Virus record (IMG/VR): IMGVR_UViG_3300030339_000188 | Span: 1-29,178 of that record | Length of the DNA: 29,178 bases | From: a virus | Reading direction: 5' to 3' (one strand) | Shown: piece by piece, positions 1,773 through 29,178 of the stretch | Numbering within the stretch: the stretch's first letter is position 1 | Layout of the letters: the number at the start of each line of letters is the position of its first letter | The notes under the pieces: model-generated | The model's database searches: none | What the model was told of the DNA's origin: nothing | The model's input: the letters and a program-made list of their open reading frames with translations, nothing else | Position numbers and translations under genes: made by a program

Positions 1773-1777
1773 AATGG

Positions 1778-2058: not shown

Positions 2059-2071
2059 AAATGCTTTTTTG

Positions 2072-2972: not shown

Positions 2973-2974
2973 TT

Positions 2975-2994
2975 CTTTTGAATAAAATCGAACC
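2975..2994 (-). repeat. 20-bp conserved element upstream of nuclease paralogue 1
   Basis: On the minus strand this reads GGTTCGATTTTATTCAAAAG and abuts the nuclease start. The same 20-mer with one change occurs at 4332-4351 upstream of paralogue 2. The first 7 bases match the GGTTCGA of tRNA T-arms. Confidence 0.65.
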
Positions 2995-3029
2995 TTTTTT
3001 CTGGTGTTTTTATATTATATTTTAAAAAG

Positions 3030-3119: not shown

Positions 3120-3153
3120 ATAGTATTAATTTCCTTTATTTTAAATTAAAAAG

Positions 3154-3235
3154 CACGCACTGTAGGATTCGAACCTACGAGTGAAAATCAGAGAAGTTTG
3201 GAATTTCTTGCCGTCGACCACTTGGCTAAGTACGT
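3154..3235 (-). tRNA. Class II-shaped tRNA with anticodon CCA (Trp reading)
   Basis: Acceptor ACGTACT/AGTGCGT, D-stem GCC/GGC with loop AAGTGGTCGAC, anticodon stem AGAAA/CTTCT with A31.C39, loop TTCCAAA (CCA), a 13-nt variable region with a TGA-TTT-TCA hairpin, T-arm GTAGG-TTCGAAT-CCTAC, discriminator G. The D-arm and variable arm look like Ser/Leu/Tyr bodies, the anticodon like Trp. The weak anticodon stem lowers certainty of the register. Confidence 0.75.
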
Positions 3236-3240
3236 ATTAT

Positions 3241-3259
3241 ATGCGTTATAAAGCCGCAT
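3241..3259 (-). other. Inter-tRNA hairpin
   Basis: ATGCG (3241-3245) pairs with CGCAT (3255-3259) around a 9-nt loop, between the CCA tRNA and tRNA-Arg. It is short and has no U-tract; a spacer structure like the others in this array. Confidence 0.3.
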
Positions 3260-3267
3260 CCCTTTAG

Positions 3268-3339
3268 TACCCCTACCAGGACTCGAACCTGAATCTAAAA
3301 ATTAGAAGTTTTTCGTTCTATCCCTTGAACTATAGAGGC
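3268..3339 (-). tRNA. tRNA-Arg (anticodon TCT)
   Basis: Acceptor GCCTCTA/TAGGGGT (two G.U pairs), D-stem GTTC/GAAC-type, anticodon arm AAAAA-CTTCTAA-TTTTT (TCT), T-arm TCAGG-TTCGAGT-CCTGG, discriminator A. It reads AGA, the favoured Arg codon in these AT-rich genes. Confidence 0.93.
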
Positions 3340-3352
3340 ATTTAAATTTTTA

Positions 3353-4309
3353 CTACTTGTCTAAAATTTGTTTTCTTAACTTTTGATAGATTTTGTAAAA
3401 CTCTAAATCATAATCAAAATCCAACCATATCATTCTATATCCCTTTTCATCACAATATTTTTGTAAAGCTTCTTTTTTATATGGAATTGTTCTATTATAA
3501 TTATGAGTTGAGTTATTACTCCATTTCATTTTTACTTCTACAATATAAACTTCGTTTTCCTTTTTTACATAAAAATCAGGATTAAAGGTTCTATGGTTAT
3601 TGTTTTCCCAAAAATTTAATATATTTTTATACTTCTCTATCTTCTCTGCCTTAAAAACGTCTATTAAATAAACTATTGCTGCTTGTTCTAACCTAGAATC
3701 TGTTTTAAAGTCGTTTAAAAAACCGTAACTAAAACTTTCTTGCTTAGTATTAAAATTATCAGTTCCTCTTTCTTTTATTACCCTTTGTCGACTAAGTGAG
3801 TGTAAATAATTATTACATTCTTTACTACATGTTTTAACACTCCATTTATAATCAAACTCTTTTTTACAAACTTCACAAATAGATTTTCTATTTGAATATT
3901 TACTAGATTTTCCTATAGATATGTAATAGTCATCTCTTTTTTTTTGAGAAGATAAAAACTTTTCACTAGCTTTTAACGAATTAGATGTTTTTAAATTACT
4001 CTCTTCAGTTTTTATACGACTATTAGCACAAGATCTACAACAGAATTTACTATACTTCTTTTTATTATAAGCCTGTTCTGTTATTTTTACAACATACTCT
4101 TTATTACATTTTTGACAATTTAATATATATTCAAGTTTTAAAACTCCGTTAATTCTTTTTCTACCTGTTAGTTTTTCACTTATTTTAAAAGCTCTTGTTT
4201 TACTAATCACATTAGGATTACAATTACAATTAGAACTATGTGCTGCAAACTGTTGTACTTTTTCGAATTCAAATTCTTCTTTACAAAAACGACATTTATA
4301 TTTCTCCAT
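3353..4309 (-). CDS. Zinc-finger PD-(D/E)XK endonuclease, probable homing type (paralogue 2)
   Basis: A 318-aa protein whose first ~110 residues are nearly the same as those of the 2109-2972 product (KYKCRFC.EEFEFEK.QQFAAHSSNC). Cys/His clusters lie at C6/C9, H24/C28/C30, C65/C68, C90/C94 and C145/C148/C161/C165. The C-terminal nuclease core reads E208, then NPDF at 243-246 and IVEVK at 256-260, the PD-(D/E)XK pattern with its ExK arm. A tail of about 58 residues follows that paralogue 1 lacks. The gene lies between tRNA-Arg and the GTT tRNA and ends in TAG. A CATATTTA late-promoter-like box is at 4320-4328, and the 20-bp conserved element is upstream. Mobility is inferred from its paralogue and location. 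Confidence 0.82.
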   Translation of the reverse strand: MEKYKCRFCKEEFEFEKVQQFAAHSSNCNCNPNVISKTRAFKISEKLTGRKRINGVLKLEYILNCQKCNKEYVVKITEQAYNKKKYSKFCCRSCANSRIKTEESNLKTSNSLKASEKFLSSQKKRDDYYISIGKSSKYSNRKSICEVCKKEFDYKWSVKTCSKECNNYLHSLSRQRVIKERGTDNFNTKQESFSYGFLNDFKTDSRLEQAAIVYLIDVFKAEKIEKYKNILNFWENNNHRTFNPDFYVKKENEVYIVEVKMKWSNNSTHNYNRTIPYKKEALQKYCDEKGYRMIWLDFDYDLEFYKIYQKLRKQILDK

Positions 4310-4331
4310 TTCTTTTTAATATAAATATGTA

Positions 4332-4351
4332 CTTTTGAACAAAATCGAACC
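4332..4351 (-). repeat. 20-bp conserved element upstream of nuclease paralogue 2
   Basis: Minus-strand GGTTCGATTTTGTTCAAAAG, 19 of 20 identical to the element at 2975-2994. Here 22 bases separate it from the nuclease ATG rather than about 2. It could be a relic of a tRNA T-arm carried with the mobile gene, or a regulatory box. Confidence 0.65.
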
Positions 4352-4374
4352 TAAAATCAATATTTATTTTTTTG

Positions 4375-4462
4375 CGCGCCAGGCAGGATTCGAACCTGCG
4401 GTGAAGATTTCTCTTACTGGATTAACAGTCCAGACTTTTCGGCCAACTAAAGCAACCAGCGC
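4375..4462 (-). tRNA. Class II-shaped tRNA with Asn anticodon GTT
   Basis: Acceptor GCGCTGG/CTGGCGC with two G.U pairs, D-stem GCTT/AAGT with a long loop containing GG, anticodon arm CTGGA-CTGTTAA-TCCAG (GTT), a 17-nt variable region forming AAGA-GAAA-TCTT, T-arm GCAGG-TTCGAAT-CCTGC, discriminator G. The variable arm is a clean 4-bp hairpin with a GAAA tetraloop, unusual for an Asn tRNA. Charging identity is uncertain (Asn versus Ser). Confidence 0.85.
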
Positions 4463-4774
4463 ATATTTTATTATATTATTTTATCTTAAAAAAAATAAAC
4501 CTCAATTACAAAGAGTTATACTTGATAACTGTACCATTGCAGGTCTACAACATCTCGGAACTTAATTATTTTAAATCATTATAACAAACTATAGATTTTA
4601 GCTACGTGTTTATTGTTAAATGTGTTTAAAACAGAGTTAAATCACAGAATATTAATTATTTGGCGCCCAAGCCATCTTGAGATCCTAACTTCATAGCGTT
4701 CTGACTTTACTAATCATTAGTTTAAAAGTTTTACTTTGTCAGTACGTGAAAACTTAGTAAAAAACCATATATTG
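4463..4774. other. Gene-free stretch between the GTT tRNA and tRNA-Tyr
   Basis: About 312 bases without a credible ORF or complete tRNA. It holds an AGTTAT/ATAACT hairpin (4514-4530), a CTCAAG-like 6-bp hairpin near 4670-4690 that shares GCCATCTTGA with tRNA-Gly, and the closed mini-structure at 4701-4742. It may contain decayed tRNA sequence. Confidence 0.5.
4701..4742 (-). other. Inter-tRNA mini-structure (closing stem plus two hairpins)
   Basis: CTGAC (4701-4705) pairs with GTCAG (4738-4742). Inside are ACTAA-TCA-TTAGT (4709-4721) and a small AAAA-G-TTTT hairpin. The same 42-48 nt plan is seen at 1147-1191 and 1627-1674. Confidence 0.4.
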
Positions 4775-4856
4775 TGAGAATGGAGAGATTCGAACTCCCA
4801 TGCCTGTTAAGAACCGGAGCTACAATCCGGCGAGCCACCAATTGCTCAACACTCTC
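4775..4856 (-). tRNA. tRNA-Tyr 1 (anticodon GTA), class II
   Basis: Acceptor GAGAGTG/CATTCTC, D-stem GAGC/GCTC, anticodon arm CCGGA-TTGTAGC-TCCGG (GTA), 14-nt variable arm as expected for bacterial tRNA-Tyr, T-arm GGGAG-TTCGAAT-CTCTC, discriminator A. A normal Tyr tRNA. Confidence 0.94.
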
Positions 4857-6346: not shown

Positions 6347-7081
6347 TTATATTTTTTCTAAACTTTCTTTTACTCTTAATAAAAACTCACGTTGTCCTAA
6401 GTATTTCCATGATGCATCTACAAACTTTGGCGTAGAATCATCTATTACATAGCTTGTAGGGCCGCCACCTTCGTCAGTTACAGCATCAAATGTAAGAACA
6501 TAAGGTTTTCCTTTTACAATAATTTCCACTTGATATCCAATAGTCCATTTAATTCCACTACGACTCATTGCATCTTTTCCCATTCGAGTAATAGCATTAC
6601 CGCCTTTAGAAAACTTATAATCAAGTCCCATTTTCAAAAGAAGATTTGAAAGAGGTCCTGTATAGCTTCCTCTAAGTCCTTTATCACTTTTACTAAGATC
6701 ATTTTGTTTTTGAACATATTGAGAAGGAACAATTGCATTATCAAATGTATCTTGAATTTCTTGAGGAGTAGCTCCTAGTTTTAAAGCTTTATCTCCAAAT
6801 TCTGAAAAACTACCATTATAATAACGTCCAGATTGAGATATATTAATATCTTCTCCTTTAAGTTTAAGTCCTGCTACAAATCTAGCGATAGCTTTATCTT
6901 TATTAGTTATAGTAGAAGCTACACCTTTTCCATCTCCACCTTTTAATACTATATCTAACATTCTTTCCCAGTCTTTACTTCCAACTTTTGCTTCTGTTAA
7001 AACTACTTTCTTCCCAGAAATTCTTTGAAGTTTTTCAGTAAGCAACTCTATTGTTAATTGTTTTTCTTTGTTTTTAGTCAT
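6347..7081 (-). CDS. Putative packaged virion protein with capsid-targeting-like N-terminal tag, 244 aa
   Basis: Residues 1-30 contain KEKQLTIELLTEKLQRIS and then KKVVLTE, ending at E30. The 198-aa product of 17169-17765 has the same layout with LKE at exactly E30, and the GNAT ORF has a shorter version ending LRE. LxE is the T4 gp21-type prohead protease cleavage pattern, so I infer a propeptide that is removed in the head, as for T4 internal proteins. The remaining ~214 residues contain a Gly/Lys-rich middle (FSKGGNAITRMGKDAMSRSG) and a beta-rich end (VEIIVKGKPYVLTFDAVTDE); no enzyme family is recognised. The gene lies just downstream of the major capsid gene and its terminator; no clear late box is visible in front of it. 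Confidence 0.78.
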   Translation of the reverse strand: MTKNKEKQLTIELLTEKLQRISGKKVVLTEAKVGSKDWERMLDIVLKGGDGKGVASTITNKDKAIARFVAGLKLKGEDINISQSGRYYNGSFSEFGDKALKLGATPQEIQDTFDNAIVPSQYVQKQNDLSKSDKGLRGSYTGPLSNLLLKMGLDYKFSKGGNAITRMGKDAMSRSGIKWTIGYQVEIIVKGKPYVLTFDAVTDEGGGPTSYVIDDSTPKFVDASWKYLGQREFLLRVKESLEKI

Positions 7082-7212: not shown

Positions 7213-8880
7213 TTAGTTAAATACTTCGAATTTTTCAATTCCCTTCATTTGAACGATTCCGTAGAATTTATTGTTCAACATTTTAGTTCCGAATCTTGAA
7301 GCTAATTGTCTACGTGGATTGAAAGTTTCTGGATCAATCACAACAGGTGATAAGATATACTCAATATAAGGACAGTATACATAACCTGTATCGAAGAATG
7401 ATGTACCTTTTCTACCTACAAGACAAACTTCAGCAGGTAATATTGGGTCAACATAAACATCCCATTTTTTAGATAATTTACCAATTCTTTCTACACCAGC
7501 AGCAAATTTAGTACCTTCTTGGTCGCCTTCCATTGGTTTGTAAGTTTCTAAGTTCTCTAACTTAGCAGCACCTTCAGCAGAAATAAGAACCCAGTTAGCA
7601 CCACCTCTACGGGTTGATTTTTGGATTTTACCATTAATTCTGTTTACAGCGTAAACTAAAGTTTGGTTATAGTTACCTTCAGTACCACGGAATACTGTGT
7701 TAGCTGGATTAGGATCGATTGCAGTTGCAAAGTTAGCGTTCCATACTTCAAAGTGAGCAGCACCAATAACTAATTCTTTAATGATCATACGGTCTTTTTC
7801 TTGAGCTGTTTCTTCAGACATTAATTGTGTTAATTCTGCTTCAGCGTCAATTGCATGATAAGCCATTAAGTCTTGAGCTAATTCAATAGTCCAAGCTGTT
7901 TTAAGTTTATGGATGTGTGTTTGAATAGGAGCAGAAGTAACTTTCATTTTTAATTCTGAACTATTTTGTGGTTCAAGTTCTAAGTTAGCGTAATCGTTAA
8001 ATCCGATACGAACTTGAACTGTACCTAAACCTGTTTTAGTAGGAATAATTTTTAAAAGTACATGGTTGTTTGGAGCACCAGGACCTTGGATTCCACCACC
8101 TGTTGTTGTTGGAGGTTGGTTTTGACCAGTTGCGTTACCTGAAGAAGTAACTCCTTGTGTACGACCTGAAGAAAGGAAATCTTCTCCCCAAGCTTGGATA
8201 GTTTTTTGTACGAAATAATCTTGACCTTCAACAAGTGAACCTGCGAACACTCTTAAAGAAGCTAAATTATTCATTGTAAAACCACCTACTGCAGTTGCGT
8301 TAAAATCTACTACTGCAATATTCATTACGTTAGTAGCACCTAAGTCAACATTTGAAATTTGGAAATTTGCAGTTAAAGCAGCATCAGCAGCAGCAACTGT
8401 AGAAGCGTCAGTATAACCACGAGCAATTACACGACCTTTAGAAGTATCGTATCCTTTGTTGTCGTAGAAACGATCGTATCCACTTGTAGTTTCGTAATCT
8501 TTTGCTGTTCCAACAGATGATTTAGCGTTAGCTCCTGTAGTAACTTCATAATCCAAATAGAAAACAACTCCGTTAGAATAAGATAATGGTTGTACACTAA
8601 TTAAATTAGGTGTTACCATTAAAGCGTTTTGACGTCTGATCATTGGGATAGCGATAGTATCAAATACTGCCATATCCGCAGATGTATTATTTTCAGCTAA
8701 GATTTGTTTCTTTTGGTTTTCAGCTAAGATCGCCATTTTTCCCAAATCTCTACCTTTTAATCCATATAAGTATCCTGATTTTTTCCATGCATTAACTACC
8801 TCAGTAATACGAGTAGTTTCAGAACGGTCAAGAATTCTACCTAACTTATATTTTTCTGTATTTTCTTGTAATTGTCTCAT
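7213..8880 (-). CDS. 23: Major capsid protein, T4 gp23 family
   Basis: A 555-aa protein. The segment HKLKTAWTIELAQDLMAYHA followed by IDAEAELTQLMSEE is the hallmark of T4 gp23-type capsid proteins, and the C-terminal stretch (YVDPILPAEVCLVGRKG, then YCPYIEYILSP) is also typical. It forms the hexamers of the head shell. An N-terminal propeptide is likely: tandem ILAE sequences at residues 51-54 and 60-63 fit cleavage by the prohead protease, close to the E65 site of T4 gp23. A Gly/Thr/Pro-rich stretch around residues 245-270 (TTTGGGIQGPGAPNN) looks like an exposed loop or insertion. A promoter box is at 8912-8920 and a terminator follows, so it is its own transcription unit. No Shine-Dalgarno. 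Confidence 0.96.
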   Translation of the reverse strand: MRQLQENTEKYKLGRILDRSETTRITEVVNAWKKSGYLYGLKGRDLGKMAILAENQKKQILAENNTSADMAVFDTIAIPMIRRQNALMVTPNLISVQPLSYSNGVVFYLDYEVTTGANAKSSVGTAKDYETTSGYDRFYDNKGYDTSKGRVIARGYTDASTVAAADAALTANFQISNVDLGATNVMNIAVVDFNATAVGGFTMNNLASLRVFAGSLVEGQDYFVQKTIQAWGEDFLSSGRTQGVTSSGNATGQNQPPTTTGGGIQGPGAPNNHVLLKIIPTKTGLGTVQVRIGFNDYANLELEPQNSSELKMKVTSAPIQTHIHKLKTAWTIELAQDLMAYHAIDAEAELTQLMSEETAQEKDRMIIKELVIGAAHFEVWNANFATAIDPNPANTVFRGTEGNYNQTLVYAVNRINGKIQKSTRRGGANWVLISAEGAAKLENLETYKPMEGDQEGTKFAAGVERIGKLSKKWDVYVDPILPAEVCLVGRKGTSFFDTGYVYCPYIEYILSPVVIDPETFNPRRQLASRFGTKMLNNKFYGIVQMKGIEKFEVFN

Positions 8881-17168: not shown

Positions 17169-17765
17169 TTAAAAAATTTGATATTCATCGTTACCTATAA
17201 CTATACTTTTTATGTTTGAAATTTTAAATTGTCTAACTGCAGCGCCTCCTGGTGTGAAATTTGTACTTGGTTTTAAATAAGGTTTTAATTCTTCTTTAGG
17301 TATTTCATTTCCGTTTATTTTATAAACTGGTTTTGAAGAATCTTTGGCAATCATAATTAATTTAGGTTCTCCACTATTTCTAATTAAAGCTCCTTCATGT
17401 TCTCCCATAGATTTTCCTGATGGTATAAAATTAGCTTTTTCTCCTGCAGCTAATCTCTCAGAGTTTTGTTCGTGTGTGTAATCATAATTTACAATACCAT
17501 CAACATAGTTTTCTTTTACTACTTTATCATACATAGGATTAGGAACTTTTTTACCATCCTGAATGATGTTTTTGTTCATACCTACAAGAGTAACTGTAAA
17601 CAAAGTAACTGGAGTATCTTTCGGCTGCTCTGCTAAGATTTTTTCTAGTTGATCAACATTTATTCTTTTCAAACCTTCTTTTAACACAATTTTCTTTTTA
17701 GAAATTCTTTGTAGTTTTTCAGTAAGTAAAGCTATTTCTAACTGTTTTTCTTTTTCTGTTTTCAT
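17169..17765 (-). CDS. Putative packaged virion protein with capsid-targeting-like tag, 198 aa
   Basis: The N-terminus KEKQLEIALLTEKLQRIS then KKKIVLKE ends at E30, in register with the 244-aa product of 6347-7081 although the bodies are unrelated. I read this as a capsid-targeting propeptide cut after LKE; ILAE at residues 38-41 is a second possible site. The body includes YVDGIVNYDYTHEQNSERLA, FIPSGKSMGEHEGALIRNSG and a region with PVYKINGNEIPKEELKPYLK, a layout I associate with uncharacterised proteins of other large phages, without known function. Its own promoter box is at 17793-17801, divergent from the primase gene. Confidence 0.78.
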   Translation of the reverse strand: MKTEKEKQLEIALLTEKLQRISKKKIVLKEGLKRINVDQLEKILAEQPKDTPVTLFTVTLVGMNKNIIQDGKKVPNPMYDKVVKENYVDGIVNYDYTHEQNSERLAAGEKANFIPSGKSMGEHEGALIRNSGEPKLIMIAKDSSKPVYKINGNEIPKEELKPYLKPSTNFTPGGAAVRQFKISNIKSIVIGNDEYQIF

Positions 17766-17852: not shown

Positions 17853-18722
17853 ATGAAAGGGACTTACGATCAATTATTAAGAGCATTAACTCCATTAGGT
17901 GAAGTAAAGGTTTGTGGATCTCAATTGAAGTTTAATTGTCCTCGTTGTGAAAATGAATTAAAAAACCCTATTGATAAATTTAATCTTGAAATAAATTTTC
18001 AAAAAAACGCAGGTAAATGTTGGGCTTGTGGTTTAAGTGGTTCTCTTTATTCTTTTATTTCACAATATGGTTATAAAGACTTTGCTCCTTTATTTAAATC
18101 TGAAAATAAAGTTAACTATGAAGAAACTAAAGAAAAGAAAGTTTCTTTACCTTTAGAGCTTTCTAACGTATGTAACTTCCCTGAAGTAAATACTTATTTA
18201 AAAAAAAGAGGGTTAACATCAGAATTTATCAAAGAAAGAGAAATTAAATATTGTTTTGATGGATATTTTAAAAATAACATAGTTTTTCCTTCTTATAATA
18301 CAAAAGGAGAATTAGTTGCTATAGTTATGCAAAATTTTTACACTAAACAGTATAGAAAATTTCTTTCTTCTGATTTTGTATGCTTTTACGAAAATTTCAT
18401 AAATAAAAACTCACTTATTATTATGACAGAAGGTGTGTTTGATGGTGGTGTTATCCCAAACTCTTTAATATTGTTAGGAACTGAAATCAACGATAAAATT
18501 TTAGACTTTTTAATAGATGCTGATGTTTTATTAATCTTAGATGCTGATGTTAATAAAGATTTAATAGAAAAAAAGGTAAATCAATTAAAATCAACTTGTA
18601 AATCAGTTCAATATTTAATTTTAACTCCAGAACAAGATGATGTTAATTTTTTCTTTACAAAAAATCCAAATTTACTTAAATCTAAACTTCTTCCTTATTA
18701 TTTACCTGAAGTTTTAATTTGA
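17853..18722 (+). CDS. DNA primase with CHC2-type zinc finger and Toprim domain
   Basis: A 289-aa protein. C29-x2-C32 and C56-x2-C59 (FNCPRC ... GKCWACG) form the zinc-binding domain that reads the priming site. Residues ~140-240 form a Toprim fold: TEG with E193, and LILDADVNKD with D230 and D232 as the metal-binding acidic pair. This is the layout of T4 gp61/DnaG-type primases, which make RNA primers for lagging-strand synthesis. It is slightly shorter than T4 gp61 (342 aa) and has no helicase domain. It is the only replication gene here, on the opposite strand between head and baseplate genes, and overlaps the 3' end of the hub gene by 25 bases tail to tail. No late box; a 9-bp inverted repeat covers its leader. 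Confidence 0.88.
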   Translation: MKGTYDQLLRALTPLGEVKVCGSQLKFNCPRCENELKNPIDKFNLEINFQKNAGKCWACGLSGSLYSFISQYGYKDFAPLFKSENKVNYEETKEKKVSLPLELSNVCNFPEVNTYLKKRGLTSEFIKEREIKYCFDGYFKNNIVFPSYNTKGELVAIVMQNFYTKQYRKFLSSDFVCFYENFINKNSLIIMTEGVFDGGVIPNSLILLGTEINDKILDFLIDADVLLILDADVNKDLIEKKVNQLKSTCKSVQYLILTPEQDDVNFFFTKNPNLLKSKLLPYYLPEVLI

Positions 18723-21541
18723 TGAGAAACTGGAGATGATACATTTAAACCTCCTCCGTTTTCTTGAGAATTATCTAAGTTTTCTTTCTTTTCTTCTTTT
18801 GTGTTATCATCTTTTAAAATACGAGCAGCTTCTAAACTTGTTATGAAAAAATTATCAGATCCAAGTTTATGAGTAGCTGATAACACCATATATTCTCCGT
18901 CAAAAAAACCCATACCTTTGACAAAGACATTTTTACCTGGACCTATCCAAGGATGACAAATTGCTTCTATTTTTGCACTTTGCATTTGAGCAAATAATAT
19001 TTTTAAATTTCTTTGTCTGTCAGCTACGGTTGTAGGTGGTTGTTCAATTTTTGTATTATAATCAGTATAAGTAACAAAATCTCCAACTGTATAATCTACA
19101 TCTATTTTCATAGCATTGGGAGTATCTGTTTTTTCTATAGATATTTTTGTAGATAAACTTCCTTGAAATCTATATGCAAAAACATCTTTTTCTTGCCTCA
19201 TAAGTTCTAAAGTATTCGCATATTTAGATTTAGAATCTGTAGAGTTTAAACTAGAATTAGTTGGTTGGATAATTGGAGTTGCAACATATTGAGATTCATC
19301 AAAATCATCTGTTACACAAATAATCCAAGCAGCATTAATTCCAGCACCTGAACCTGTTGCTGCCGATTGCAAAGCACAGCCGTTATCATCTAAAACTTCT
19401 CTTAACCATCTTATAATGGTTGTTTCGTTATCTGGAGTTTTATTTTCTAAAACACTTGCTTTCTTTTTACTTATTTTTATATAAACTGAATCTGGATGAA
19501 CATCTCCTTGGTTAGCTCCTCTACCAAGACCAATTACATGAACATATCCTGTAAAATCTCTTGAATTTGCTAAATTCCTCCAGTGTCTTTTTCCATTAAC
19601 GTATTGTCTTTTACCTCTTTCAGCATCTGAATCATTAAAACTTGAAAAAGCATCTAAATCTGCTAAATAAGCAATTAACAAATCGCCTAAAGTAATATTT
19701 CTTGATTCAGAAATTACTCTTCTTAAATAATGAGCAAAAGCTAAAGGCATTTGATGAACTATAGAACCTGTAGTTCTAAAAGATAACTTTGCTGTTAAAG
19801 CTCCTGAATCTTCTTGTGAAACTTCTGGGTTTAAAATAGATAATTTAACATAGTTTGCATCTGTTAAGTTAGAACGAGAAACCGTTACTTCTCCGTTTAC
19901 TTCATTATATTGCACTCCATCATCAAATAATGAATAATATTCTTTACTTCCTAAAACGTTTCCATTTTTGTCAACTGTATTAGATATTTCAGAATTAATA
20001 CTTTGAGTTAAAGTAATATATGGTTTACTTGGAAGAATTTGATTTATTAAAAAATGTCTAACTTCATCTCCAAAAACTTCCCATCCTGGATGTGTCCAAA
20101 AGCCCATTGATGTTTTATTTGCTTTATCATAATAAGGCAATCTTAACATCCATCCATATCTAAACCAATAATCGCCTCCAGAACTTCCTGGTCTAGCATC
20201 GTAAATAAAAGACCAAGGTGAAGTTAAATCTGTAAACTTATTCCCTTGAACATCAACTAAAGACATACTTATTATAGCTAATCCATTATCGCATTGAGCT
20301 CCTGATTTAATTTCAAAATCAGTAAACCCTATTGGTCCAGGCTTCGAAGTTGATTTCGACATAGCTCCTGGAGATAAAACTAATTGTCCAAAAGCTCTTA
20401 CTCCTACTTTTCTTGCATTCATGACTTGTAATCCTGCTTCGTTAGGAACACCCATCCAATCATAAGATTCTTTAAAGGGATCTACTGACGTTAAATCTGC
20501 AACACCGCTAGAACTATTCGTTGCTTCTTGACCTTGTCCTGCTCTTTTAGAATCTGTATAAAAAGATCCTTTAGGTAGACCTTCGTCCATTTTTTTTCTT
20601 CTTTCTTGCAATTGATTACTTGCAGAAGTTGCTTTATTTCCTACACTTGCAGCTGTATCTTTTGGTACACTACCTGCTTTTTCATAATAACCATTATCCA
20701 TAGTTACTTGAGGAATAAACTCAACAAAAGGCAATAAACTTTGAGGAGTGTATTTAGAGGATAAATATAATATAAATTGTTTTAAAGAAATCCAGTCACA
20801 ATCTTCACTTACAGAAGCTCTTTTTCCCCAAGATACGTTAACTTGATCTTGTTCTGTATTTGATATATTAATACCTATTTGGTCAAATGTTTTTTGGTAA
20901 TTTGGTAATTCTTCTTTATCGTCTTCAGCACCTAGTCCTCCATCTACTCCATCATTTCCACCATCTCCTTTAGTTGTAGGAGAAACATCAGATGTCTTAG
21001 GAGGATTTTTTGAAGCGGTAGAGTCTGTTTTTTTTCCATCATTTAATGCAAAAACTTCGTTTTTATTTGATCCTTCAAGATAAGAAATATGAACCCACCA
21101 AGGCTCTCCATCTTCTGCGGCTGAACCTTTTCCTGTTTTAGTTTCCCATATTAATTGTTTAAAAGAAGGAACACTATTTTTTATAAAAAAATATAAATCT
21201 CTATTTTTTACACTTCCTTTTTTTAAAGCAGATTTTACGTCAATGTCTGCTGCCGCAGCATTTAAGTGATCACTCGACTTAGCTCCTCCTGCTGCTGCGT
21301 TTGCAGCAGGATCTCTATAAAGACTATTTATCCCAAAACCATCACCAAATTGACTATATAAAGGATCTAAAATATTTACTACTAGTCCTATAATGTTTTT
21401 TTTTATTTTTCCATCTATAAGAACCGAACTTTCGTTTCTCGGTGAACTTTGATATATTTGTTTTGGTTTTAAAACATGTCTCCATGTAAAACTATTACTT
21501 CCAGGGACAAATTGGTCCAATAAAACTGCTTCTTTTGCCAT
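18698..21541 (-). CDS. Baseplate hub protein with N-terminal M15-type peptidase domain
   Basis: A 947-aa protein. Residues ~65-155 carry an M15 zinc peptidase signature: INSLYRDPAANAAAGGAKSS then DHLNAAAADID (S90-x-H92 ... D99) and PWWVHIS (H151), the three usual metal ligands, with E146 as a possible catalytic acid. Such domains cut peptide bonds of peptidoglycan. After a low-complexity Gly/Lys/Thr linker (~165-215) comes a long structural part. Near the end, HPWIGPGKNVFVKGMGFFDG and EYMVLSATHKLG match the hub fold of gp27/gpD-type tail proteins. I infer a tail-tip hub that opens the cell wall, an analogue of T4 gp5/gp27 with a peptidase in place of the lysozyme. The gene is 5 bases downstream of the gp53-like gene, in one transcript. 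Confidence 0.82.
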   Translation of the reverse strand: MAKEAVLLDQFVPGSNSFTWRHVLKPKQIYQSSPRNESSVLIDGKIKKNIIGLVVNILDPLYSQFGDGFGINSLYRDPAANAAAGGAKSSDHLNAAAADIDVKSALKKGSVKNRDLYFFIKNSVPSFKQLIWETKTGKGSAAEDGEPWWVHISYLEGSNKNEVFALNDGKKTDSTASKNPPKTSDVSPTTKGDGGNDGVDGGLGAEDDKEELPNYQKTFDQIGINISNTEQDQVNVSWGKRASVSEDCDWISLKQFILYLSSKYTPQSLLPFVEFIPQVTMDNGYYEKAGSVPKDTAASVGNKATSASNQLQERRKKMDEGLPKGSFYTDSKRAGQGQEATNSSSGVADLTSVDPFKESYDWMGVPNEAGLQVMNARKVGVRAFGQLVLSPGAMSKSTSKPGPIGFTDFEIKSGAQCDNGLAIISMSLVDVQGNKFTDLTSPWSFIYDARPGSSGGDYWFRYGWMLRLPYYDKANKTSMGFWTHPGWEVFGDEVRHFLINQILPSKPYITLTQSINSEISNTVDKNGNVLGSKEYYSLFDDGVQYNEVNGEVTVSRSNLTDANYVKLSILNPEVSQEDSGALTAKLSFRTTGSIVHQMPLAFAHYLRRVISESRNITLGDLLIAYLADLDAFSSFNDSDAERGKRQYVNGKRHWRNLANSRDFTGYVHVIGLGRGANQGDVHPDSVYIKISKKKASVLENKTPDNETTIIRWLREVLDDNGCALQSAATGSGAGINAAWIICVTDDFDESQYVATPIIQPTNSSLNSTDSKSKYANTLELMRQEKDVFAYRFQGSLSTKISIEKTDTPNAMKIDVDYTVGDFVTYTDYNTKIEQPPTTVADRQRNLKILFAQMQSAKIEAICHPWIGPGKNVFVKGMGFFDGEYMVLSATHKLGSDNFFITSLEAARILKDDNTKEEKKENLDNSQENGGGLNVSSPVSHQIKTSGK

Positions 21542-21546: not shown

Positions 21547-21816
21547 TTATATTTCTTCGTTATATCCCCATTCGTTCCATATTCTATTTAATGGTAAGGC
21601 TATTCTTATTTTATCACCTGCTTTTATTTGCCATTCAAAATTATATTGTGGGTTTGCACACATAATTACCCAACTGAGAGTAACATCATGATAATACTTA
21701 TCTGCTAAAGTATCAATATTATCAAATTGCTTAAAAACATAAGGAAGATCAGATGAAGCATATGATATTTTCCTCATAGGCTGTATAAAATTTTTTTTTG
21801 TATATCTACTTGCCAT
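21547..21816 (-). CDS. 53: Baseplate wedge protein, T4 gp53-like
   Basis: An 89-aa protein starting MASRYTKKNFIQPMRKISYA. The core FDNIDTLADKYYHDVTLSWV followed by IMCANPQ is the LysM-like pattern of gp53 family baseplate proteins (a time/space-keeping 'LA.KYYGD.TLWWVI..AN' block), and the KAGDKIRIALP end fits. It would help hold wedge subunits in the baseplate. I chose the ATG at 21816 over an upstream TTG at 21846, because the promoter box at 21847-21855 then has the usual ~30-base spacing, and the upstream codons look like leader. It is followed by the hub gene. Confidence 0.78.
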   Translation of the reverse strand: MASRYTKKNFIQPMRKISYASSDLPYVFKQFDNIDTLADKYYHDVTLSWVIMCANPQYNFEWQIKAGDKIRIALPLNRIWNEWGYNEEI

Positions 21817-21846
21817 TATGCTTCTTATTAAATATTGTTTTTTCAA

Positions 21847-21855: not shown

Positions 21856-21882
21856 AAAAATGATACATAATGGTTGTTTTTT

Positions 21883-21891
21883 TTATATTTA
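21883..21891 (+). promoter_or_regulatory. Late-type promoter box of the plus-strand structural genes
   Basis: Plus-strand TTATATTTA then AAACAAA, 18 bases before the ATG at 21910. It overlaps an upstream in-frame extension and so argues for the 21910 start. Confidence 0.62.
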
Positions 21892-21909
21892 AAACAAAAA
21901 AGTAATCCA

Positions 21910-23196
21910 ATGTCTTACATAAGAATCTATCCAAACAAAAATAACACTATTTTTAAATCTAACTTTGGCTCTTTAATTCAAAAGCAAGGAGAAGTTAATA
22001 CTGGAAAAAATCCTATATTTGAATTAAATGATGGAGCAAGTTCTTCACGCATTTTATTAGGCTTTGATCTTGAAGAGTTAAAAAGCAAGTTGGTAAATAA
22101 AAGCTTTACTTGTAATTTAAAGCTTTATGACGCAGGTGCTTTAAGAAACGGAGGGTTTGTAACTAAACCGATTAATTTATATTACTTTAACTCTGTTTTT
22201 GTAGAAGGAAACGGATTTGGTTTTTCAGATGCTAGTGCCTCTGTTGGAATTAGCAATTGGAATAAAAGAACGAATAATGATAGTTGGACTACAGAATTTG
22301 ATACTCCAATTATGAGTATTCAAACTCAATCTCAATCTGATGATTTAATTTTTAAAAATTTAGAAAGTCAAGTTTTAAATTCAATAAATAATAATTTAGA
22401 ATGTAATTTTGCTTTGAATTTTGATTCTTTTGATGCAAATGATGTTTTATACGCTAAATTTATTAGATCAAAATATACGAGAACTATTTTTAAACCTTAT
22501 TTAGAGTTTTTTATAAACGATAGTGTAATTGATTCTCGTTATAACTTAAAAAAAGATATCTCTTCTCCTTTATATTTAATAAATTGGAATTTAGAAGAAA
22601 TTTCAAATTTAACTGTAGAAGTAGAGGATTTACAATCTTCAGAAATTACAACACCTTCTATTACATATGATGGAAACGGAATACATAGATATAACTTTAC
22701 TCCTTTGACTAATGGAGAATATGTAGAAATTTGGAAAACTAATGGAGAAGTTATTAGTAAGTCAATGTTAATTACAAAACCAATATTTGATATTTCTCAA
22801 AACCAATATTCTTCTTTGTATTTTTATCCAACAACTTATTATAACAAAAATTTAATAAGAAAAGGAGATTTAGTTAAAATTAATTTAATTGCTAAAAGTA
22901 ACAGAAAAAATTTTGTTTCTTCTTTTTTTGAATACAAAATTTTAACTACAAGTGAATTTGAAATTTGCCCATGGATGCCAGTAAGTGTATATGGAAATGA
23001 AATGTATTTTTATATGGATACTTCATATTTCTTTGAAGAAATTGAATATGAAATAATAGTTAGATTTAAAAACGGTGAACGTACTCAAACAAGTGTAGAA
23101 GTTTACAAATTTAGAGTTACTTTTGATGGTCCTTCTAAATTCGACGGAGTTGATGCTTCTCCTTATAGCGATAGAGAAATTTATTTAAAAAAATAA
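21910..23196 (+). CDS. Virion structural protein with N-terminal DNRLRE-like domain, 428 aa
   Basis: The product starts MSYIRIYPNKNNTIFKSNFG. The segments NTGKNPIFELNDGASSSRIL-LGFDLEEL and later NLYYFNSVFVEGNG resemble DNRLRE-type beta-sandwich (carbohydrate-binding-like) domains, in which a row of ordered polar residues precedes RFDL-type strands. The C-terminal ~200 residues are another beta-rich region (YFYPTTYYNKNLIRKGDLVK). There is no signal peptide. It lies at the head of a plus-strand run of three structural genes opposite the baseplate genes, so a baseplate, tail-tip or fibre-attachment role is likely. An upstream frame extension from 21874 is rejected because it contains the promoter box. 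The domain call is tentative. Confidence 0.7.
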   Translation: MSYIRIYPNKNNTIFKSNFGSLIQKQGEVNTGKNPIFELNDGASSSRILLGFDLEELKSKLVNKSFTCNLKLYDAGALRNGGFVTKPINLYYFNSVFVEGNGFGFSDASASVGISNWNKRTNNDSWTTEFDTPIMSIQTQSQSDDLIFKNLESQVLNSINNNLECNFALNFDSFDANDVLYAKFIRSKYTRTIFKPYLEFFINDSVIDSRYNLKKDISSPLYLINWNLEEISNLTVEVEDLQSSEITTPSITYDGNGIHRYNFTPLTNGEYVEIWKTNGEVISKSMLITKPIFDISQNQYSSLYFYPTTYYNKNLIRKGDLVKINLIAKSNRKNFVSSFFEYKILTTSEFEICPWMPVSVYGNEMYFYMDTSYFFEEIEYEIIVRFKNGERTQTSVEVYKFRVTFDGPSKFDGVDASPYSDREIYLKK

Positions 23197-23203
23197 TAAC
23201 AAA

Positions 23204-24244
23204 ATGAAACAATTCGATTTTAACGATAATAAAGTTATCAACTATACTCCTTTAGAACCTACATCTCCTCAAATGATGTTTGTACCTACTGAAGAAAGTG
23301 CGGCTTGGAGTTTGCAAAATTATAACGCTACTCAAACTACTTCTACTGTTTATCAAACAGGTATAAGTCAAAAACTTTCAGCTGTTGCTAATTATGTTGG
23401 TATATCAACTATTGACATTCCTCATATAATAGATCCAGATTTTACTGACTTTAAAATTAGTAATCAAACAATAACTAACGAAGATTTATTTACAAATGAT
23501 GGAGATCAAAAAATATTAATGTTAGGGAATAAAATACAATTATTAGAAATACCTAAAGATAGATTTAAAAACTCGGATACAGGAGAATATAATTATGGAG
23601 TATATTATCTTCAAATTCAACCTAAATGTGTTACTACTACAATTAAATGTATTGTTCAAGGAACTCGTAATTTATATTCTAGTATAAACGCAGCTGAAGT
23701 AGTTACTAATTTATCTACTATAAGAACTACATATTATAATCTTGATAAAATCCCTTTTAGTGGAACTACTTTACTTTGGGATTTTGGAAATGCTTTATAT
23801 TTAAAACAAAAAGGAAGATTGCTTGGTTCTGTTGTAGAAATATATGATTCAAATGGGAAGTTAAAGACTACTAGGTTTGCTACAAATGATGATATAAATA
23901 CTTATTCTGATTCAAGAGTAGAATTATCTCCTAATTACATAGGTTATGAATCTCCTCAACATACAATTAATATAGGTGATGTTGTAAAAATATATCCTAG
24001 AGAAACTTACTTCAACCCTATAACATTAACATTGAATTTTCAATCTTTAAATAACACTGTATACGGATTAGTTCAGTTTATGAAAAATGATGTTGCAAGA
24101 GACATCACAACAAACGTTTACGAAATATACGATGATAATGGATTAAGTGTTTCTGCAGAAGGAAATGTAGATGGTAAAGTTGTACAAAGTTACCAAATAC
24201 AACAAGTTGGAAATAAAGAATTACGTAAAAATTTAAAAATTTAA
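23204..24244 (+). CDS. Hypothetical virion protein, 346 aa
   Basis: Starts 7 bases after the previous stop and ends 5 bases before the next ATG, so it is the middle gene of a tight operon. The product begins MKQFDFNDNKVINYTPLEPT and is rich in Thr, Asn, Tyr and Ile, with alternating hydrophobic strands typical of beta-structured phage tail proteins. A segment around residues 130-165 (YNYGVYYLQIQPKCVTTTIK) and the C-terminal stretch (PITLTLNFQSLNNTVYGLVQ) look like sheet-forming repeats. No catalytic motif, signal peptide or coiled coil is visible. The family is not recognised; a tail or baseplate role is inferred from the neighbours. Confidence 0.72.
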   Translation: MKQFDFNDNKVINYTPLEPTSPQMMFVPTEESAAWSLQNYNATQTTSTVYQTGISQKLSAVANYVGISTIDIPHIIDPDFTDFKISNQTITNEDLFTNDGDQKILMLGNKIQLLEIPKDRFKNSDTGEYNYGVYYLQIQPKCVTTTIKCIVQGTRNLYSSINAAEVVTNLSTIRTTYYNLDKIPFSGTTLLWDFGNALYLKQKGRLLGSVVEIYDSNGKLKTTRFATNDDINTYSDSRVELSPNYIGYESPQHTINIGDVVKIYPRETYFNPITLTLNFQSLNNTVYGLVQFMKNDVARDITTNVYEIYDDNGLSVSAEGNVDGKVVQSYQIQQVGNKELRKNLKI

Positions 24245-24249
24245 AAAAT

Positions 24250-27200
24250 ATGCCTACAATAACAACTTCAAAATCAAACGATGCTATTAAAGGTGGCGTA
24301 TTTTTTGGTAGTAACTTAACTCCTGGAGGTTTATTTTCTAACATTCCAGAAAGCACCAATATAGTTTCTAATCAAACTGTTATTTCTCCTAATATTATTC
24401 TTACTTTAGAGCAAATTAAAAATAGCTTAAACAATAGTTTAAGTTCAACTAATTCTTTATCTAACCCAACTTTAAATATATTTTTGAAAAAATATACTCA
24501 ATTGTTGATAGATTACGAAGAAATTAGAAATACAGTTTTTTTTGGATCTAGTTATACAGAATTAAGCTACCAAATAACTTATTTGTCTAGCAAATATCCT
24601 TATAAAATTTATATAGCTAAAAAAGGAACAACAAATACTCTTAAAAAAATTGAATTAAATTCAATTGGTGCAAATTCTTCTTTCTATTTTAAAATAAATG
24701 AAGATATGCCTTTATATAATAATGTAGACATTACTAATGATGGGGCTTTTTCATGGATTAAAGATTATGATATTATAGATTCTACTAAAACTAGATTCCC
24801 TGTAAAAGATTTGCAAGCAATTAAAACAGGGGTTTTAGGAGAAGTTACTCCTTTTAAATCTACAGATAGTTTTTCTTACTATATATTAGAAATAAAAGCA
24901 AACTTAACTTTAAAAGAAGAAGGGAGTGTTATATTTTTTGATTCTCTTAAAATGCAATCAAAATTAGGAGAAGCTCAAATAATAAACGGAGATGGTTATC
25001 CTTTTTATCTTAATGATAGTGTTTATTTAAAAGTTAAATTTGTAAACTTATCTGATAAGTTAAAAGATTTAGAAATTTTAAAAAGAGATGCTGTTGGTGT
25101 TTTTTCGTCTACTGCAATTACTTTTAAAGTAGATTCTTTTAATTCTTCATCACCTTCTTTATGCTCTATTACAATAATTAAATCTTCAGAAGATGGGACT
25201 TCTATTAACGGTTTTCCTTCAGATATTGATTTAGTTGCTGGAGATTATTTAACTATAGTAAAAGACTTATCTCCTGAATATAAAATATATGAAAAAGTAA
25301 AAATTGATAGTATTACAATAGGAGATACTATGATTGTAAACTTTACACCAGATCCTCTTTTAAACATAGATTATAATCAAATTGATACATCTGAAGGTGT
25401 TTACGTCACCCTACCTGAAACACTCGCAAAAATCCAAGTTTCTGGTAGAATAGAAGCTACTGACGAGATACAGTATAATGCTGGGATTGAATTAAATGTT
25501 CAAACAATACATAGAGGACTATTGCTTTCTCCAAAGTTGGGAAAAATTATAGAGTTTGAAAGTACATTAGATGGGTTGCAAAAAGCAATATTAAATATTT
25601 TAAATCCAACTCCTTGGCCTAGAGAAGTAATTACTAATAATATTATAACTGAAGGAGAAGAGTTTAGACTTTGGGTTCAAAATCCAGATAACATGATCAA
25701 AAACAAAACTGATTTTGATTTTAGCTATTATACAGATAATGAACAACAATATGATTTAGTAGGAGCTATAAGTTTAGACGAAAACGAAACTAATCAACTA
25801 ATTAGAAGAGCAATACCTTCTGAATTGATAAATGAAATTAATGAAACTGATGATAGTTTATTCTCTCGTTATGTATTATTAGCAGCAAAGTTTTTTGATT
25901 CAATTAAAGTTTATATAGATTTTATTCAATATACTCATACTTTAAATTATTCTGAATTTAACCAACTTTCTCCTGAATTTTATAAACTATATGCAGATCA
26001 TCATGGCTTAACATTATTTAGTGAAGGAAACGAAAGCGATCTTTCTTCTTTGATTTTTGATACAGTTAATACAAGAAGTTCTTTGTATGTTGAAAACTCA
26101 AACTTAATCGATAGTGTAAAACTAAATGAATTAGCTCAAAAAAGACAAAAATATTTGTTAATAAACTTATTATATATTTATAGCAAAAAAGGAACAATAG
26201 CTTGTCTTGAATCCTTGTTAAACTTATTAGGAACTCCAGATGGGTTAGTTTCTATTTCTGAATATGAATACTTATGGGATAAAGTTAACAATTTTGGATA
26301 TAAAAATATTAATAACGAAAAAGTTAGTGTTCCTCAAGTTTTATCTTATGATAAAGATGTTGACAAATCTGTAAATAAACCTTATTATTATAAACCTGTC
26401 TATGATAACGACAATGTTTACAACCTTAGGGAATTAACTCTTCAAATAGACCCTATTGAAGGAATTACTAAAGATATTTATAAATATATTCAAAAAAAGA
26501 AACAATATGCATATTTCAACCCAGGAAGCTTTTTAAACTTACAACCTATAGAATGTCCAAAAGCAGAAAGTGATGAAAAAACATCTTACTATGGATTACC
26601 TTTATCTTTTCCTGAAAAATTCAGTGGTATAGGTGTAAATTATTTAATAGATAAAACCTCTCCTGATGATTTAAAATTTGCTAAATTTCAAATATGCGGT
26701 TTATATAAACTTAGCAGTTCAAGTGTTACTTTTACAGAAGATGTTGTAAATCCAATCAATACACTTTTTACTTACCAAATTCCTTTGTTGAAAGATTTAC
26801 CTGTAGAAGAAATATACAAAAAAAATAGCATATTTGCTTTAAATCATTATCCTATTGTTTTAAAAATTACAATTCCAGATAATTTTTCAAGTATAACAAC
26901 TTGGAATGTTAAATGTTTAAATTCTCCAAGTAACGATTTTACTTTACAACTTCCTTCTTTATATGATATTGAAAGTATAGAAGAAAAACTTAAACAATTT
27001 AAAATTTTATTTGACAATAAAACTAACGTCTTCAGCTCTTGGATAGAAGATAATAAAACTTCTGAAATTGGCAAATATGATTTTTGTATTAAATACAATT
27101 ATGATAACTTCTTGCAATCAACTTCAATTGAAAGCATTAATTGTAGTTTAGATGTTTACAACAATAATGTTCTATCTCAAAGTTATAACTTTAGCAAAGG

Positions 27201-29178
27201 AAAAAAAATTAAACCTGCTGAAGAATATATTATAGCTAACGTTGAAGGAAAAGATCTTATTGTTAGATTAAGATTGAAAAATGCCAATAACGGGAAAAAA
27301 TATGATAGAATAGTGATTTGCGAAGATGTCTTTACAAATGATGGATTAATACATAATTTAAAATTAACATATAGATTAGAAGGTGTTGAAGTTTTTGTAG
27401 ATTATAAATTTTTTAAATTTGTAAACTGGCAAGAATTTACTTTTTCTGAAAATATTAAAGTTGCTAACACTCAAGGTTCTGTATATTACCCAAAATCATT
27501 ATTAAGTGGAAACTTTAAAGGAGAATGGGATGCTACTCTTAATAACCCTAATTTAGATGCTAATTTTAACTCTTATAAAGTAGGAGATTATTGGATCGTA
27601 AAAAACGAAAATAGTTCTTCATCTTTAGATAAACTTAATGGATGGAAAGAAAATGATTTAGCTTTAAAAACAAAAACAGGGTGGGTTAGAAAAAGAATTA
27701 GTTCTTTACCAGTTGAAATTCTAAACAGACAATTAGATCAACAAACTCCTGACTGGCAAGCAGATTCTGGTGTGTATCCTTTTATTGTTGATGATAGTAA
27801 AATCCAACCAGGTGTTTTTTGGAAAACTACTGAAGTTAACGATGTTTATAATAATATTTTAAAATTAAACATTACAGCAGGAAGTTATGTTTACAAATCT
27901 TCATCTTCAGAATGGGGGCAAACTTATGACTTGCAAGTCTTAGAGTCAAAAATATACCAAGGAGAATGGTTTACTAAAGAAAATGAACTTCCTACCCCTA
28001 TTGATTTTTCATGGAAAATTGACACAAAGGGAACTTTAGATTCAATCAATTGGAAAAGTGGCAACTTAATTGTTAAAACACAAGAAGGATGGATTCAAGT
28101 TAACGAACAACAATATAGTTTAAAATGGTGGGATATGTTTGTAGGAATGCCTGCGAATATTGATATGAATATAAATAAAGTTTCTGTATTTGAAAAACTT
28201 TATATAAACCAGCCAGATTTCGAAGATTCTAATTTATCTAATAATTTAAATCATGAATTAGAAAAATGGTGGTTTGATTTCTCAAATCAAGAAAAAAATA
28301 TTAGCGGAAATTATGTAACAGATAAAATTAATATATTTGCAAACTATAACGGCTCAACCCCTTCTTTAAATAATTTTTTAGATACTTTAAAAATTAATGA
28401 TTTCTTTAAAGAAAGCTATTCAGTTATTAAATTATCAAATGTTGATAGAACTAATGTTGAAATACTATCTCAAGTAATTGGGAATACTCCTGATGTAGAA
28501 TATATTAAGTTAAATTCTTACTTTAACCCTAGTTTTGTTGAAAAAAAATTAAATTCATCAGATGCTGTTGTTTATAAAGAATTTGTTAAAAATATGATTA
28601 AACAAACTGGTTGGACAAATTCAATACATCAAGATTATAATTACGAAGGGTTTAATGAAATTATTAATAATTATTACAAATTTTCTGAAAAAGTTTTAGA
28701 TTATTCAACACTTTTAGCTTATTCTCAAAACGTTAAGCCAAAATTTGAAGGTATTGTAAAACAATTTATACCTATTGTTATTAATATTACTGAATTTAAT
28801 ATTCTTTATAGGTTTTTTACATCTAAACATCGTTATCAAAAATCTTTTTATTTAAGTAATATAGGTACTTATTTAAACTCTCCTGCGTTTTCACACTTTA
28901 AAATATTAAAATGTGAAAGTGGTGTTACTTATGAAATTAGCTTAGTAAATAAAATTACGGATGTTAATATATCACCTACGACATATTTTATATTTTCTAA
29001 TAGTGAGTCTGTTCAATGGCTTGGAACTGCAATTACAAACAAAATAAACGGTGAAGCTACAAGTAATTATTTAACTGCAAAAAAACAAAATGATATTATA
29101 TATTTTTATATAGATACACAAAATTTTAAAGATATATTTAATTTGGACCCTAAAGATGTTAATATAAAACTTTCTTCA
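24250..29178 (+). CDS. Giant tail/baseplate structural protein, N-terminal 1643 codons (runs off the right edge)
   Basis: An uninterrupted frame from ATG at 24250 to the last base. It opens MPTITTSKSNDAIKGGVFFG. The first ~600 residues look beta-rich. Residues ~628-670 (LAQKRQKYLLINLLYIYSKK, then GTIACLESLLNLLG) are helical and resemble a segment of P2 gpI-type baseplate proteins. Two copies of a GEW-type module follow: one near residues 1087-1150 (FKGEWDATLNNPNL ... GDYWIV ... GWKENDLALKT), the other near 1236-1290 (YQGEWFTKENELPTPI ... INWKSGNLIVKTQEGW). These repeats recall adhesive modules of phage fibres. Size and place suggest a baseplate wedge or tail-peripheral protein, loosely comparable with T4 gp7. 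The stop is outside the window. Confidence 0.8.
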   Translation, partial: MPTITTSKSNDAIKGGVFFGSNLTPGGLFSNIPESTNIVSNQTVISPNIILTLEQIKNSLNNSLSSTNSLSNPTLNIFLKKYTQLLIDYEEIRNTVFFGSSYTELSYQITYLSSKYPYKIYIAKKGTTNTLKKIELNSIGANSSFYFKINEDMPLYNNVDITNDGAFSWIKDYDIIDSTKTRFPVKDLQAIKTGVLGEVTPFKSTDSFSYYILEIKANLTLKEEGSVIFFDSLKMQSKLGEAQIINGDGYPFYLNDSVYLKVKFVNLSDKLKDLEILKRDAVGVFSSTAITFKVDSFNSSSPSLCSITIIKSSEDGTSINGFPSDIDLVAGDYLTIVKDLSPEYKIYEKVKIDSITIGDTMIVNFTPDPLLNIDYNQIDTSEGVYVTLPETLAKIQVSGRIEATDEIQYNAGIELNVQTIHRGLLLSPKLGKIIEFESTLDGLQKAILNILNPTPWPREVITNNIITEGEEFRLWVQNPDNMIKNKTDFDFSYYTDNEQQYDLVGAISLDENETNQLIRRAIPSELINEINETDDSLFSRYVLLAAKFFDSIKVYIDFIQYTHTLNYSEFNQLSPEFYKLYADHHGLTLFSEGNESDLSSLIFDTVNTRSSLYVENSNLIDSVKLNELAQKRQKYLLINLLYIYSKKGTIACLESLLNLLGTPDGLVSISEYEYLWDKVNNFGYKNINNEKVSVPQVLSYDKDVDKSVNKPYYYKPVYDNDNVYNLRELTLQIDPIEGITKDIYKYIQKKKQYAYFNPGSFLNLQPIECPKAESDEKTSYYGLPLSFPEKFSGIGVNYLIDKTSPDDLKFAKFQICGLYKLSSSSVTFTEDVVNPINTLFTYQIPLLKDLPVEEIYKKNSIFALNHYPIVLKITIPDNFSSITTWNVKCLNSPSNDFTLQLPSLYDIESIEEKLKQFKILFDNKTNVFSSWIEDNKTSEIGKYDFCIKYNYDNFLQSTSIESINCSLDVYNNNVLSQSYNFSKGKKIKPAEEYIIANVEGKDLIVRLRLKNANNGKKYDRIVICEDVFTNDGLIHNLKLTYRLEGVEVFVDYKFFKFVNWQEFTFSENIKVANTQGSVYYPKSLLSGNFKGEWDATLNNPNLDANFNSYKVGDYWIVKNENSSSSLDKLNGWKENDLALKTKTGWVRKRISSLPVEILNRQLDQQTPDWQADSGVYPFIVDDSKIQPGVFWKTTEVNDVYNNILKLNITAGSYVYKSSSSEWGQTYDLQVLESKIYQGEWFTKENELPTPIDFSWKIDTKGTLDSINWKSGNLIVKTQEGWIQVNEQQYSLKWWDMFVGMPANIDMNINKVSVFEKLYINQPDFEDSNLSNNLNHELEKWWFDFSNQEKNISGNYVTDKINIFANYNGSTPSLNNFLDTLKINDFFKESYSVIKLSNVDRTNVEILSQVIGNTPDVEYIKLNSYFNPSFVEKKLNSSDAVVYKEFVKNMIKQTGWTNSIHQDYNYEGFNEIINNYYKFSEKVLDYSTLLAYSQNVKPKFEGIVKQFIPIVINITEFNILYRFFTSKHRYQKSFYLSNIGTYLNSPAFSHFKILKCESGVTYEISLVNKITDVNISPTTYFIFSNSESVQWLGTAITNKINGEATSNYLTAKKQNDIIYFYIDTQNFKDIFNLDPKDVNIKLSS

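Follow-up and report, generated by a model that had tools for sequence, protein, structure and literature searches.

A predicted phage protein with an M15-type peptidase domain ahead of a gpD/gp27-like tail hub part

Results

Architecture of the fusion gene

The window analyzed here is the whole of a 29,178-nucleotide stretch of viral DNA, IMG/VR record IMGVR_UViG_3300030339_000188. One of its genes encodes a protein, P0001, in which an M15-type peptidase domain stands ahead of a long C-terminal part whose end resembles the tail hub proteins gpD of phage P2 and gp27 of phage T4 (Table 1). The initial annotation of this locus, which was made from the sequence alone, had proposed a single chain of 947 amino acids. 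This was borne out by one complete open reading frame (ORF) that occupies exactly the listed interval on the minus strand, begins with ATG and contains no internal stop codons. A relative of 955 amino acids with the same architecture was found on an independent viral contig of 7,909 bases (L002), and the two proteins can be aligned over their full length.

Conservation between the two relatives was uneven. The identity was 35% in the M15 domain (residues 41-160), 17% in the linker (residues 161-215) and 50% in the hub part (residues 216-947). The flexible linker that had been proposed between peptidase and hub was therefore confirmed, and its weak conservation fits a role as a tether. In the AlphaFold2 model, the predicted local distance difference test (pLDDT) score was below 50 over residues 183-212. 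The lack of an in-frame start codon in the linker argues against the hub being translated separately.

Table 1. Coordinates of the fusion gene, its parts and the adjacent baseplate gene in the window.
Feature	Positions	Strand	Evidence
947-aa M15-peptidase/tail-hub fusion gene (protein P0001)	18698..21541	-	ORF; full-length relative L002:3562-6429, 46% identity
M15 peptidase domain, residues about 10-171	21029..21514	-	PF08291, phrog_894, AlphaFold2, 1lbu match
H92, first zinc ligand	21266..21268	-	42/42; aligns with H154 of 1lbu
D99, second zinc ligand	21245..21247	-	42/42; aligns with D161 of 1lbu
E133, invariant acid, possible general base (putative role)	21143..21145	-	42/42, biased by scan pattern
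H151, third zinc ligand	21089..21091	-	42/42; outside 1lbu sequence alignment
Linker, residues 172-217	20891..21028	-	rich in G, S, T, K, D, E; without in-frame ATG, GTG, TTG
Hub region, residues 218-912	18806..20890	-	50% identity to L002 over 216-947
gpD/gp27-type C-terminal hub module, residues 857-927	18761..18973	-	phrog_52, E = 1.2e-7, profile 461-533
gp53-like baseplate wedge gene, just upstream	21547..21846	-	phrog_7145 'baseplate wedge subunit', E = 4.6e-7

The M15 domain and its zinc ligands

The N-terminal part of P0001 matched the Pfam family Peptidase_M15_3 (PF08291) over residues 51-105 (E = 1.8e-8; score 34.9 bits, curated cut-off 23.2) and phrog_894, an 'endolysin' family, over residues 33-171 (E = 3.5e-15). 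A tblastn search of 50,697 phage records with P0001 yielded matches in 16, all of them confined to residues 43-170. A search of NCBIfam returned no families for either P0001 or L002, and a PDB sequence search with P0001 gave nothing real. In the AlphaFold2 model, pLDDT exceeded 90 over most of the domain. In the VIA-align structure comparison, its best solved match was the zinc DD-peptidase 1lbu (Z = 12.9, root-mean-square deviation 2.7, 123 aligned), and the six rows that followed were also M15 enzymes (LysB4, VanY, VanXYc and LdcB; Z = 4.7-5.9). Foldseek with the full chain also ranked 1lbu first (E = 0.018, probability 1.00) and returned no match at E ≤ 0.001. An M15-type zinc peptidase at the front of the chain, as initially proposed, is thus supported by two family matches, the modelled fold and the similarity to 1lbu.

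We then examined conservation in an alignment of 42 sequences, made up of P0001, L002 and 40 members of a non-redundant set of 44 stand-alone M15 proteins. S73, R76, H92, A97, D99, Q129, I131, W132, E133, P147 and H151 were invariant in 42/42. The invariance of Q129, I131, W132 and E133 is biased, as these residues lie within the peptide pattern that fetched the loci; H92, D99, H151, S73 and R76 lie in neither of the fetching patterns. When the family profile was aligned with 1lbu (E = 6.5e-8), R76, H92 and D99 fell opposite R138, H154 and D161 (numbering counted from the printed range). We take residues 154, 161 and 197 to be the zinc ligands of 1lbu. The residues that had been named at the outset (S90-x-H92...D99 and W149-V150-H151) exist as numbered, and the predicted zinc site is retained in that the M15 fold was confirmed and its ligands are conserved. 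The ligands have been kept despite the 35% identity of the P0001 and L002 domains, and in 40 stand-alone domains as well, which suggests selection for peptidase activity of the M15 domain, as far as sequence comparison can tell. On sequence, the domain may be either an endopeptidase or a carboxypeptidase.

The hub part

The C-terminal module of P0001 matched phrog_52, and the match was repeated in L002 (E = 3e-6). This is the family of P2 gpD, and gpD itself scored E = 1.3e-187. T4 gp27 fell weakly on the same profile, with its residues 309-353 on profile positions 461-506 (E = 0.072), and when phrog_52 was searched against the T4 genome, the single match lay within gene 27 (E = 1e-3). Residue 309 of gp27 was placed opposite residue 857 of P0001, and this register was repeated by a separate weak hhalign run (E = 0.19). 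The second tube barrel of gp27 is made of residues 207-239 and 307-368 (PMC3004832). On that description, the gp27 residues matched to phrog_52 lie in the second of two tube barrels. The gp27/gpD-like hub proposed at the outset is supported by this C-terminal module.

In the VIA-align comparison, the many rows of fluorescent proteins and cystatins for residues 775-947 (Z = 3-4) were discarded, since this is a low-confidence stretch of the model. No solved hub structures were among the rows shown in the Foldseek and VIA-align comparisons of the full chain.

Gene order and source phage

The gene just upstream of the fusion gene is gp53-like. Its ORF begins at TTG, and the likely start is an ATG at 21816. 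L002 has a gp53-like neighbor too (phrog_7145, E = 1.4e-7), which is 53% identical and starts at that ATG position. In both the window and L002, the order is the gp53-like gene and then the fusion gene, and in T4 gene 53 is followed by gene 5, which encodes the tail lysozyme. Just upstream of these two genes, L002 also encodes a PARP-type ADP-ribosyltransferase (1801-3090; PF00644, E = 5e-23; weak WGR, 0.0038).

Other genes in the window were T4-like, namely those for the portal (phrog_213, E = 1.9e-54), the major head protein (phrog_138, E = 1.1e-55) and the prohead protease (phrog_207, E = 1.5e-30). The source is therefore a T4-like tailed phage. Microcystis phage Mel-JY01 (32%) and Flavobacterium phage immuto (28%) headed the portal relatives among named phages. 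The 29,178-base record would be too short for a whole T4-like genome.

Relatives of the two parts

The two parts of P0001 differed greatly in their distribution. At least 535 stretches encode relatives, and M15 matches were present in 80/80 of those listed. All of these 80, which are the best of the at least 535, were stand-alone ORFs of 118-165 amino acids, with five open at the contig end. They share the domain (phrog_894, PF08291) and its invariant residues with P0001. They differ from it in being single-domain proteins that presumably serve in lysis rather than entry. One stand-alone M15 protein of 160 amino acids is encoded by Flavobacterium phage MaF61 (L001 11911-12393), where it is annotated as a 'putative peptidase/plate protein'. 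It is 52% identical to a stand-alone relative from a viral contig, and the words peptidase and baseplate are absent from the accessible main text of the MaF61 paper.

For the hub, searches with its full alignment and with three sub-alignments found no relatives beyond L002 in viral contigs, and none were found in genome contigs. In tblastn searches of phages, the P0001 hub gave no match up to E = 10 and the L002 hub gave one chance match (E = 8). A hub profile run over six records found the window and L002 only. Run over 8,119 ORFs of 176 loci, it found only the window and L002 loci, plus a chance match in L008 (E = 0.25). In the whole contigs of 20 of the 80 portal relatives, neither the hub (0/20, in a scan without a positive control) nor phrog_52 (0/20) was found. 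Because such scans depend on profile similarity or on short conserved peptides, more distant hubs may be missed. The M15 domain is thus common alone and rare on a hub, since 80/80 of its listed relatives stood alone and L002 was the only further hub fusion found in these scans.

The single-domain state of all 80 relatives might lead one to regard the fusion as an artefact, produced by an assembly error or frameshift between a stand-alone endolysin and an adjacent hub gene. However, L002 shows the same uninterrupted architecture at 46% identity on an independent contig, and the linker provides no in-frame start codon. Such an origin is therefore extremely improbable and refuted for practical purposes.

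Discussion

Interpretation and opposing evidence

We interpret P0001 as the subunit that forms the central hub in the contractile tail of a T4-like phage and that carries at its N-terminus a linker-tethered M15 zinc peptidase, probably a captured endolysin domain, to open the wall for the tube. We give this interpretation a probability of roughly 70%. The observation made in the initial annotation held, and its interpretation was upheld in part: the M15 domain, the linker, the gpD-like hub and the position of T4 gene 5 all found support. Entry by cutting peptides rather than glycans is unproven, because the fragment may omit a lysozyme gene and because gp5 of Caulobacter phage Cr30 has both enzymes.

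Several results weigh against our interpretation. In the M15 domain, L002 had no PF08291 match at E = 1 and was recognized by phrog_894 alone (4.5e-8). In 1lbu, the residue corresponding to the position three before H151 is an acid; this position is W148 in P0001 and G in L002. The absence of this acid would fit an M15 domain that is structural or substrate-binding, or that acts as a carboxypeptidase with no effect on cross-links, in which case the wall would not be opened by it. The same can be said of two substitutions in L002, where the serine two before H92 is replaced by R and the W two before H151 by V. However, the position three before H151 was variable across the 42 sequences (D in 26, A in 7, S in 5, N in 1 and K in 1, besides W in P0001 and G in L002). 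The acid is also absent in 14/40 stand-alone domains, so it is no hallmark of this subfamily. Furthermore, H92, D99, H151, S73 and R76 did not vary. We therefore regard a domain without wall-opening activity as quite unlikely.

In the hub part, residues 216-856, about 640 in number, had no convincing family match among Pfam and PHROG profiles. The full-chain structure prediction that had been suggested with the initial annotation, run with AlphaFold2 on 39 sequences, modelled the M15 part only, and the rest of the chain gave no usable model. When hub residues 370-913 were predicted alone from two sequences, the pLDDT was 32 and no confident model was obtained. The hhalign comparison of the two-sequence hub alignment with T4 gp27 was weak (E = 0.19), and those with P2 gpD and Mu gp44 gave nothing sensible. 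As a sequence-based assignment, the hub identity rests on the module of about 71 residues plus gene order.

A different baseplate protein with the same gpD-type barrel, such as a wedge or cap protein, has to be considered in place of the central hub. Just 71 residues out of about 730 are covered by the clear family match, gp27 (391 amino acids) and gpD (387 amino acids) are only about half as long as the region, and a confident hub model was lacking. Against this, in both relatives the match sits C-terminally in the chain and pairs with the C-terminal end of the gpD part of the profile, and the gene order fits that of gene 5 and the hub. We consider a baseplate protein other than the hub unlikely.

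Comparison with known tail-tip systems

Like the gp5-gp27 cell-puncturing complex of T4, P0001 would combine a wall enzyme with a hub at the tail tip, and its gene follows a gp53-like gene. The part of phrog_52 that the C-terminus of P0001 matches is also where residues 309-353 of gp27 align. The T4 lysozyme, however, lies in the middle of gp5, a chain separate from gp27 (PMC3004832), whereas P0001 has an N-terminal M15 domain on the hub chain itself. With P2 gpD the likeness is the significant C-terminal profile match. gpD, however, has 387 amino acids and is covered by the hub profile over its whole length, whereas P0001 has 947 and includes an enzyme domain.

Tal-type tail lysins contain an N-terminal hub and a C-terminal hydrolase in one chain. 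P0001 shows the reverse of this hub-then-hydrolase order, with the M15 domain at residues 10-171 and the gpD-like match at 857-927. The diffocin protein CD1368 likewise contains a hub and wall hydrolases in one chain with a flexible linker. Its hub (residues 1-314) comes first and the hydrolases (338-581) follow, among them an endopeptidase with a catalytic triad that the source compares to SagA (PMC10996793), whereas in P0001 a zinc M15 domain precedes the hub.

The same M15 module was also found on other tail-tip proteins. Cr30 gp5 (YP_009098974.1; L177 2357-4462), a protein at the center of the tail tip in a T4-like phage, has a phrog_894 module (E = 5.8e-13). It differs from P0001 in that this module is C-terminal and that the OB and Phage_lysozyme2 (E = 5.5e-29) domains are retained. 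It is annotated as baseplate hub subunit and tail lysozyme only, and a peptidase is not mentioned. The PAAR-M15 proteins of Pseudomonas phages Peetri and phi30-3 are further cases (phrog_894, E = 2.6e-10 and 8.6e-10, respectively), although their M15 module is C-terminal to a PAAR spike tip and not on a hub. Their genes (L095 5446-6453 and L096 3326-4348) are annotated as PAAR or hypothetical, again without mention of a peptidase. As a tblastn query, the phi30-3 protein matched 219 of 50,697 phage records, and at least 80% of it was covered at one place in 25 of them.

No description of a phage hub joined to an M15 domain was recognized in the open-access literature as judged by titles and the starts of abstracts, subscription papers being mostly uncovered. 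The parts themselves are known from other phages. The novelty here is their order, with the M15 domain ahead of the hub, and the direct attachment to the hub.

One or two wall enzymes

Pfam gave PF08291 alone for P0001 up to E = 10, and no OB or lysozyme domain of the gp5 type was found in it. The same Pfam library detects both of these domains in Cr30 gp5. It is conceivable that the M15 peptidase in the gene 5 slot has replaced the muramidase and is the only wall enzyme of the virion, so that a rare T4-like lineage opens the wall by peptide cutting alone. We regard this as doubtful.

Somewhat more probable, and close to an even chance, is that hub and peptidase are as described above and a separate glycan-cutting tail lysozyme (gp5) is also present, which the peptidase supplements. 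Cr30 joins Phage_lysozyme2 and M15 in one gp5, and CD1368 bears both a lytic transglycosylase and an endopeptidase (PMC10996793). In addition, the window is a 29 kb record only and most of the genome is missing. Set against a second enzyme are the lack of a gp5 OB or lysozyme domain in P0001 and in the eight window proteins scanned, and the position of the fusion gene in the T4 gene 5 slot, which hints at replacement.

Proposed role in entry

Under our interpretation of P0001 as a hub subunit with a tethered peptidase, the M15 domain would probably have been captured from the single-domain M15 endolysins that are common in phages. The gpD-like part may form a trimeric hub below the tail tube, and three tethered peptidases would then be suspended at the tail tip. 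When the tail contracts, this tip would cross the outer membrane into the periplasm. There, the peptidases could cut peptide stems or cross-links locally, thin the peptidoglycan and clear a path for the tube.

P0001 adds an order of parts to the known arrangements of tail wall enzymes, with the enzyme before the hub and a zinc peptidase instead of a lysozyme. One M15 module (phrog_894) is shared by three different tail-tip proteins, namely P0001, Cr30 gp5 and the PAAR-M15 type, which suggests that an endolysin domain has been captured repeatedly. The protein also offers a direct route to testing whether peptide cutting alone suffices for entry by a contractile tail.

Other features of the window

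A DNA-primase-like ORF (17853-18722, plus strand; phrog_47, E = 1.3e-24) is convergent with the hub gene and overlaps its 3′ end by 25 bases. On the other side, three consecutive ORFs of 440, 346 and at least 1,643 amino acids occupy 21874-29178 on the plus strand, opposite to the hub gene, and the last runs off the contig end. No convincing family match was found for the first two in Pfam and PHROG, and none for the third in Pfam.

Two minus-strand ORFs, 6347-7081 and 17169-17765, are otherwise unlike but share about their first 30 residues (24/44 identical, E = 1e-9). The shared leader terminates in L-x-E before A or G, which we take to be the cleavage motif of the T4 prohead protease. From these sequence features, the leader may target the two products to the capsid, where they would be internal head proteins. 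In the major head protein (7213-8880), ILAE occurs twice, at about residues 51-54 and 60-63.

Twelve tRNA genes lie on the minus strand at 285-4856, interrupted by ORFs at 2109-2972 and 3353-4309. These two ORFs are paralogous (41% identical over 268 aligned columns) and have Cys/His-rich N-termini. The former gave weak nuclease-like matches, and both are perhaps mobile endonucleases.

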